This document shows, one piece after another, positions 47,230 through 48,842 of a DNA stretch of 64,000 bases. The stretch covers positions 1-64,000 of the forward strand of contig SVRV01000010.1 of the NCBI GenBank assembly GCA_015064635.1, given 5' to 3'. The notes beneath the pieces were generated by a model. The model worked only from the letters and a program-made list of their open reading frames with translations. It did not search any database and was not told where the DNA came from. Every line of letters starts with the position of its first letter. The stretch's first letter is position 1. Made by a program: the position numbers and the translations under genes. This DNA is from Oscillospiraceae bacterium. Lineage in GTDB: Bacteria > Bacillota > Clostridia > Oscillospirales > SIG627.

Positions 47230-47649
47230 CTATTTGTTTTTTCTTTTGTCAATAAATGTCTGTAATATTATTTCAGCGGATATGGTATCCACAATACTAC
47301 GCTTTTTTGTTTTTTTGGTATTAGTCGCCAGCATAAAGTTATACGCCGACACCGTGGTACATCTTTCGTCGCAGGTTTCAATGGGGAGGGGAGTGAGCGT
47401 TTTTAAAATTTCGCAAAATGCAAGAGTGTTTTCTACACGGAAGCCGCGAGTCCCGTCCATATTGAGCGGAAGACCCACAACAATCATTTCAGCGCCTTCT
47501 TCTTCGGCAATTTTAGCCGAAATCTCGGCAGCTCCTCTCATTCCACGCACCTTTTCCGTGCGAAGTCCCGTTGCGATTATTTCATCCTTGTCGCAGGTGG
47601 CAAAGCCGACTCTTGCGTCTCCGTAGTCAATGGCAAGTATTCTGATAAT
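47230..47649 (-). CDS. ruvX: RuvX/YqgF-type Holliday-junction resolvase-like protein with a non-ATG start
   Basis: A 138-139-aa RNase H-fold protein; YqgF acts in rRNA processing and recombination. The frame opens with RILAIDYGDARVGFA, the catalytic DYG motif, and later has MIVVGLPLNMDG and CDERCTTVSA. No ATG, GTG or TTG precedes the DYG motif in frame; a TAA stop closes the frame four codons upstream. The only start options are ATT (47647-47649), overlapping the upstream gene's TAA, or ATC (47644-47646), the position of Met in homologues. AAGGA lies 6 to 9 nt upstream. Starting at the first ATG (47550) would delete the catalytic Asp. This is a rare start codon or a sequence error. Confidence 0.8.
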   Translation of the reverse strand: MIRILAIDYGDARVGFATCDKDEIIATGLRTEKVRGMRGAAEISAKIAEEEGAEMIVVGLPLNMDGTRGFRVENTLAFCEILKTLTPLPIETCDERCTTVSAYNFMLATNTKKTKKRSIVDTISAEIILQTFIDKRKNK

Positions 47650-48842
47650 TACACATCCTTAAAAGTTATTTCAAATTTTCCGTCCTTTACTTCAACCGTA
47701 CCAAGGAGGCTTCCGTCACCGTGAAGCTCAAACAATGTGTCGCTTATCTTAACGATTGAAATTGACGATTGATATCCGATATTCAAAAATGTTTCCTTCA
47801 TGGTGGTCAGGTTAAATACCGAAACCGAGTTTTCAACTCTGTTGCCGCTCTTGTAGGAATATGTGAAGATGATATCCTTTTGCTCGGTATCGTCCATATT
47901 GCCGACAGCTATATCATAAAGTCCCGTGCCGCCGATGTATTTTCCGAGTGCGTACAGTTTTCCGTAAATGGCAAGATAAGTAGCATTTCCTACACGGAAC
48001 ACGTTTGCTCCCGTTTCTTCATAGAAGCCTTCGGGGGAGATTTCGGTTGCGGATTCTATGGCACCCTCGGAGAAATTCAAACCTCTCTTTTGAACGTAAT
48101 CAGCAAAGACTTCTTTAAATTCTTCAAGTGTCATGACACGGGGAACCTTTTCCTCAGTCTTCGGCTTGTCGGGATATACGTAGCTGAATATATCCCTGAA
48201 TACCTTTAAATTCCATTCCTTGCGTTCTTCAACCTCTTTTTCGCTCTTTGTGAGCTTGACAGGGTATCTTATACAAAGAAGAGTGTTTTTCGGAAGAACG
48301 TCAAATCCGGGGAGATAATAAACATCGAGGTCGCCGATATGTACAGTATAATCGTTAACGGCAAACTCAGGCTTATATCCAAGCGCTTCGGAGAGAGGCA
48401 TCAGCACGTCAGCCGCATCAAGCACGCCGTAATAATTTTCATCAATGAGGTATATCATGGAGTCGCCGGCTGTCAGGTGTGCCGCAAAGGTTTCTCCGGT
48501 TGTTTTTTGCAGATCGGATGTAGTATAACCGGTGGCAAAATTACCCTCGGTGTCATTAAAGGAAACATCCTTTGAAGTAACAGCAACCAAATCAACGTAC
48601 TTTTTGCCGTCTCCGTTATAATCCTCTTTCATTACCTCGGATATGGATGCCTGAAATAAGTTTTCCTTATATGAAAGGGGAGCTGAACCGAGATACATGA
48701 AATTTGCATCAGGCTTATCCTTGGAGAGAAGCTGAATCAGCGAAATAATAATAAATATCGCAAAGGCTCCAACGACAATTACCGTAAATTTATTATGATA
48801 CCAGAAATTCTCAATTTTCTGGCGAAACGTCATTTTTTCCAT
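47649..48842 (-). CDS. Membrane-anchored protein of unknown function
   Basis: A 397-aa protein with one N-terminal membrane helix (about 19-39, FTVIVVGAFAIFIIISLIQLL) and an extracellular domain with no family I recognise. A segment DYNGDGKKYVDL resembles a calcium-loop, but it stands alone. The C-terminal ~130 residues are beta-rich. GAGGTG lies upstream of the ATG. Its stop overlaps the apparent start of ruvX (TAATT), so the two are co-translated or coupled. Confidence 0.7.
   Translation of the reverse strand: MEKMTFRQKIENFWYHNKFTVIVVGAFAIFIIISLIQLLSKDKPDANFMYLGSAPLSYKENLFQASISEVMKEDYNGDGKKYVDLVAVTSKDVSFNDTEGNFATGYTTSDLQKTTGETFAAHLTAGDSMIYLIDENYYGVLDAADVLMPLSEALGYKPEFAVNDYTVHIGDLDVYYLPGFDVLPKNTLLCIRYPVKLTKSEKEVEERKEWNLKVFRDIFSYVYPDKPKTEEKVPRVMTLEEFKEVFADYVQKRGLNFSEGAIESATEISPEGFYEETGANVFRVGNATYLAIYGKLYALGKYIGGTGLYDIAVGNMDDTEQKDIIFTYSYKSGNRVENSVSVFNLTTMKETFLNIGYQSSISIVKISDTLFELHGDGSLLGTVEVKDGKFEITFKDV

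Follow-up and report, generated by a model that had tools for sequence, protein, structure and literature searches.

A conserved, probable near-cognate initiation codon on ruvX in four species of one bacterial genus

Where does translation of ruvX begin when its reading frame offers no canonical start codon before the catalytic residue? RuvX is an enzyme of wide conservation that is essential in many cases. To our knowledge, few bacterial genes, infC among them, use the weak near-cognate starts AUU, AUC and AUA, and gene-finding software is normally blind to them. The locus lies in contig C52 of a 2.47-Mb host genome of 57 contigs (G000); this contig is the window, that is, the whole 64,000-nucleotide stretch of DNA that was analysed. 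G000 and the relatives that share its ruvX start form a small set of uncultured bacteria from the gut.

The ruvX locus and its start region

The features of the locus, from upstream to downstream on the minus strand, are as follows.

47649..48842 (-), upstream gene, 397 aa, family unknown, membrane segment at the N terminus; stop codon TAA at 47649-47651
47661-47659 (-), in-frame stop codon TAA closing the ruvX frame on the 5' side; G002 has the same stop
47652..47661 (-), Shine-Dalgarno sequence TAAGGATGTG, complementary at all but one base to the standard 3' end of 16S rRNA (UAAGGAGGUGAUC)
47649-47647 (-), ATT, alternative initiation codon; one base in common with the upstream TAA, Shine-Dalgarno spacing 4 nt
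47646-47644 (-), ATC, likeliest initiation codon; aligned with the family ATG, Shine-Dalgarno spacing 7 nt, identical in G004, G001 and G002
47233..47646 (-), ruvX coding sequence, 138 codons counted from ATC; PF03652 and TIGR00250, purifying selection from codon 2
47230-47232 (-), ruvX stop codon
47005..47217 (-), downstream small gene, 70 aa

Sequence comparisons assign the ruvX product to RuvX/YqgF, a pre-16S rRNA nuclease and putative Holliday junction resolvase. Its profile matches exceed the curated cutoffs (PF03652, 118.5 bits with a cutoff of 29.2; TIGR00250, 89.2 with a cutoff of 43.25), and its alignment with B. subtilis YrrK (1vhx) begins at the ATC-encoded residue. The catalytic residues sought were the Asp of D-[YFL]-G, the Glu of DER and a C-terminal Asp; all are present, in segments (DYG, CDERCTT and IVDTISAE) that align with 1vhx and 7ess. 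The 70-aa gene downstream is probably in the same operon as ruvX. Its protein resembles NHLP-type leader peptides (TIGR03793) weakly, with a score below the cutoff.

The minus-strand sequence at the ruvX start is AACTTTTAAGGATGTGTAATTATCAGAATACTTGCCATTGACTACGGA, read in the ruvX frame as TAA GGA TGT GTA ATT ATC AGA ATA CTT GCC ATT GAC TAC GGA. The codon of the catalytic Asp is GAC at 47628-47626. The first-pass annotation had claimed that a TAA closes the frame just upstream and that no ATG, GTG or TTG precedes DYG, and inspection of the ruvX frame between that TAA and DYG confirmed both points. The first canonical codon in the frame is GTG at 47550, 32 codons after ATC, and a start there would remove the catalytic Asp. 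Only a start at ATT or ATC keeps the catalytic DYG in the protein. In all four species carrying ATT ATC, the frame lacks the option of a canonical start before the essential residues. Gene callers limited to ATG, GTG and TTG truncate or miss such genes, with the loss here of the catalytic residue of RuvX.

Conservation and direction of change of the start codon

The start region was compared with that of three further species of the same genus, represented by independent metagenome assemblies. The results show that ATT ATC is identical in G004, G001 and G002, at protein identities of 96%, 86% and 87%, respectively. The ruvX start of G005, of the same genus (66% protein identity), reads ATT ATG. 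ATG also stands exactly at the position of the ruvX ATC codon in every other family member that was examined. No ruvX was found in G003, a genus member with a less complete genome (68%). The near-cognate ATT or ATC start proposed in the first-pass annotation is supported, and its recurrence in three other species whose ruvX third positions are near saturation goes beyond chance. A sequencing error or a private mutation, against which comparison with relatives had been advised, is rejected because ATT ATC recurs in independent assemblies of these species; the more distant relatives do carry ATG there.

In the tree, the four ATC species are grouped with a support of 0.99, and G005 is their sister with a support of 0.98. 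Since the four species share this branch, the change occurred once, from ATG to ATC in their common ancestor. Among the genomes searched, the ATC start of ruvX is confined to these four species of one genus. The third positions of ruvX are near saturation among them, and only 28 of the 106 codons for conserved residues are identical in all four, yet no lineage returned to ATG, which suggests that the weak start is maintained. The argument is suggestive and falls short of proof, since the lineages number only four and 3 of the 11 Ile codons conserved in ruvX are unchanged in these species anyway. The unchanged ATC in four species is weakly informative by itself.

ATC, ATT and the upstream gene

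The Shine-Dalgarno sequence, (T)AAGGATGTG at 47661-47652, contains the motif AAGGA(A/T)GTG conserved in G000, G004, G001 and G002, in which the GUG extension is interrupted by one mismatch. The leader, AAGGA(A/T)GTGTAATTATCAGAAT, has one variable base only, and the end of the upstream gene diverges. The Shine-Dalgarno energy is -9.95 in G000 and G002 and -8.6 in G004 and G001, with a genome median of -9.96. Spacing was measured between the start codon and the final G of the aligned AAGGAGG, using as a reference 304 ATG genes with a Shine-Dalgarno sequence in the same genome. ATC lies at 7 nt, the commonest spacing (57 of the 304 genes), and ATT lies at 4 nt, at the edge of the range (29 of the 304). 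Both codons are within the Shine-Dalgarno window, supporting the earlier claim that AAGGA is well placed, and the ATG of G005 itself has a 4-nt spacing.

ATC is the likelier start because it is aligned with the ATG of the relatives and has the modal spacing, and it appears clearly favoured over ATT. A start at ATC gives the usual RuvX N terminus, MRILAIDYG. The expected N-terminal peptide is MRILAIDYGDAR for an ATC start and MIRILAIDYGDAR for an ATT start. No conserved mRNA structure was found at the ruvX start, where folding z-scores range from -0.9 to +0.8 and the structures differ, and the site is free of any stable fold. A changed initiator tRNA was also considered and rejected; the CAU initiator on contig C26 looks canonical, with three G-C pairs and a 1-72 mismatch.

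The upstream gene ends with GTG TAA (TAA 47651-47649, minus strand). ATT shares one base with this stop codon, and ATC begins 2 nt behind it. The resulting TAATT overlap is present in three species and absent in G002, in which the upstream gene stops short of ATT by 9 nt and of ATC by 12 nt. Given G002, the stop-start overlap looked for in translationally coupled genes is not conserved in this pair. The first-pass annotation was right that ATT overlaps TAA, but the likelier start ATC does not, and the overlap is weakened as a regulatory tie to the upstream gene. The conserved element is the Shine-Dalgarno sequence with ATT ATC and not the overlap, which makes coupling secondary. Coupling with the upstream gene may help ruvX translation, as short overlaps favour translational coupling and short distances favour reinitiation (PMC10666635).

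A larger role for the upstream gene would follow if the start were the ATT in TAATT and ruvX were translated mainly by termination-reinitiation. ATT is one mismatch from AUG and identical in all five genus sequences, its overlap with the stop recurs in three of the four species, and overlaps as short as this one favour coupling (PMC10666635). However, the stop of G002 lies 9 nt earlier, ATT is at the edge of the spacing range, and ATC, not ATT, is the codon aligned with the ATG of the relatives. ATT also directly precedes the real ATG of G005, so it is an inherited neighbour. Translation mainly by reinitiation at ATT is unlikely, though it keeps some weight. It is highly improbable that RuvX has no start of its own and is made fused to the upstream protein through frameshifting or readthrough of a stop. 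In G001 and G004, the ruvX frame does remain open on the upstream side, giving open frames of 166 and 146 codons, respectively. However, no slippery sequence was seen by eye, and in G000 an in-frame TAA lies 9 nt before ATT and the Shine-Dalgarno sequence directly precedes ATT ATC. Such a fusion is rejected because the frame relation to the upstream gene differs between species, being -1 in G000, G004 and G001, whereas in G002 the two genes share a frame and are separated by a TAA.

An apparent fusion of another kind was observed in L028 and G024:C34 (same genus as G048). There, the ruvX frame runs into a long upstream domain, with open frames of 382 and 441 codons, respectively, and the domain has the look of a histidine phosphatase by eye.

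Among the four species, ruvX codons 2-33 have a dN of 0-0.05 and a dS of 0.4-2.4, whereas the remainder of ruvX has a dN of 0.06-0.18, indicating weaker amino-acid constraint than in codons 2-33. The low dN of these codons shows that they are translated, which places initiation 5' of the first canonical start, and amino-acid selection reaches back to codon 2. Decay of ruvX, or its translation from GTG 47550 alone to give a truncated product, is scarcely credible and is rejected on the dN/dS of codons 2-33: a gene caller limited to ATG, GTG and TTG would pick this GTG or the ATG three codons later, but the truncated RuvX lacks the catalytic DYG, the stronger constraint falls on the very part that would be missing, and G002 has GTA at the position of this GTG.

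Proposed mechanism and other near-cognate starts in the genus

The preferred reading, an intact ruvX in which AUC replaced the AUG start in the ancestor shared by the four species, leaving weak initiation exposed to IF3 and low RuvX, is probable. We infer that the initiator fMet-tRNA would pair with the first two bases of AUC or, less likely, of AUU one codon earlier, and that the Shine-Dalgarno sequence AAGGAnGUG would position the ribosome at AUC. Initiation there would be weak and exposed to IF3 proofreading; the RuvX level would be low and would rise when IF3 discrimination relaxes. Low RuvX expression is expected by analogy with reporter work on other genes, in which conserved AUU and AUA starts of S. 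aureus (cvfC1 and ccpN) gave ~10% of the AUG output in poor medium and ccpN gave up to 30% in rich medium (PMC13009471). Non-canonical starts are inhibited by excess IF3 (PMC2268962).

RuvX output might also rise when 30S maturation falters, giving a homeostatic feedback parallel to that of infC. In E. coli, YqgF has a part in processing the 5' end of pre-16S rRNA (Kurata 2015 and 2018, as cited in PMC9601230), and mutations of the 16S leader or trailer raise AUC initiation 2-4-fold or more, while loss of 30S assembly factors or of the nucleases RNase G/YbeY leads to misinitiation and other errors (PMC10250234). Since YqgF takes part in 16S maturation and 30S defects raise AUC initiation, an AUC start would yield more RuvX under such defects. 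On these E. coli data, each published and here combined, operation of the feedback is a tentative proposal that leans towards doubtful. A conserved AUC on a 16S-maturation nuclease would make a testable case of initiation stringency as a sensor of ribosome quality.

The closest known system is infC, which encodes IF3 and combines an AUU, AUC or AUA start with autoregulation. The two genes are alike in a near-cognate Ile codon as the start, a good Shine-Dalgarno sequence and conservation, and both occur in this genus. The comparison with infC made in the first reading of the locus holds, as infC of this genome likewise starts with ATT, and so does infC in all six genus members, which is expected of the IF3 gene. 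However, infC is a direct sensor, since IF3 itself discriminates the start codon, whereas RuvX could act only indirectly, via 30S maturation. The near-cognate start of infC is also widespread, unlike the one on ruvX. The starts of S. aureus ccpN (AUA), cvfC1 (AUU) and infC (AUA), found by retapamulin ribosome profiling, are likewise conserved near-cognate starts of Firmicutes that lower output (PMC13009471). They differ in lying on other genes and in having long extended Shine-Dalgarno sequences, whereas ruvX has UAAGGA and GUG with one mismatch between them. E. coli pcnB, with an AUU start (Binns and Masters 2002, as cited in PMC13009471), is by that citation also an RNA-processing gene limited by a near-cognate start, and its protein is unrelated to RuvX. 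Judged from its sequence, ruvX carries a conserved near-cognate start of an already known kind, on another gene. No earlier report of such a start on ruvX was found in the literature searched.

A scan for near-cognate starts preceded by a Shine-Dalgarno sequence covered 2.45 Mb of the G000 genome, with the candidates compared with relatives, and yielded no large number of such genes in this one genome. In a codon-null version of the scan, the list was filled by one ORF without a canonical start, C50:3249-6116. A FAD-dependent oxidoreductase (PF21688; L081:14216-15787 (+), contig C18) has an ATA start; the six genus members all carry ATA or ATT at this codon, and G007 carries ATG. An RluA-family pseudouridine synthase (TIGR00005; L151:15711-16658 (+), contig C22:55711-56661) also starts with ATA, as in all five genus members in which it was found; elsewhere the codon is mostly ATG. 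The near-cognate-start genes of the genus thus include some for proteins unrelated to ribosomes, which counts against the feedback idea. Joint tuning of a gene set (infC, ruvX, the RluA-family synthase, the FAD oxidoreductase and perhaps spoIIGA) by IF3 and 30S maturation is a speculative and rather improbable extension. If true, a drop in ribosome quality would raise the output of ribosome-maturation enzymes. The genus would be useful for asking why AUG repeatedly gives way to AUA, AUU or AUC.

Further candidates were observed in the same genome. The spoIIGA gene (L185:949-1716 (-), contig C11) has a likely ATT start, with ATT or ATC also in G001, G003 and G005; two codons before it, where the gene usually starts, this genome has TTA and G001 has ATG, leaving the near-cognate start ambiguous and its assignment tentative. 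A 188-aa protein of unknown family (EKNVIVVDEQG...; L104:15614-16180 (-), contig C42) tentatively starts with ATC, as it does in G008, which belongs to another genus (93% identity), and it is perhaps mobile. The ORF on contig C50 (L112:3249-6116 (+)) is an open frame of ~950 codons with a YD-repeat look and no canonical start for >180 codons. C50:8272 carries a second segment like it, and the frame is possibly a rearranged cassette.
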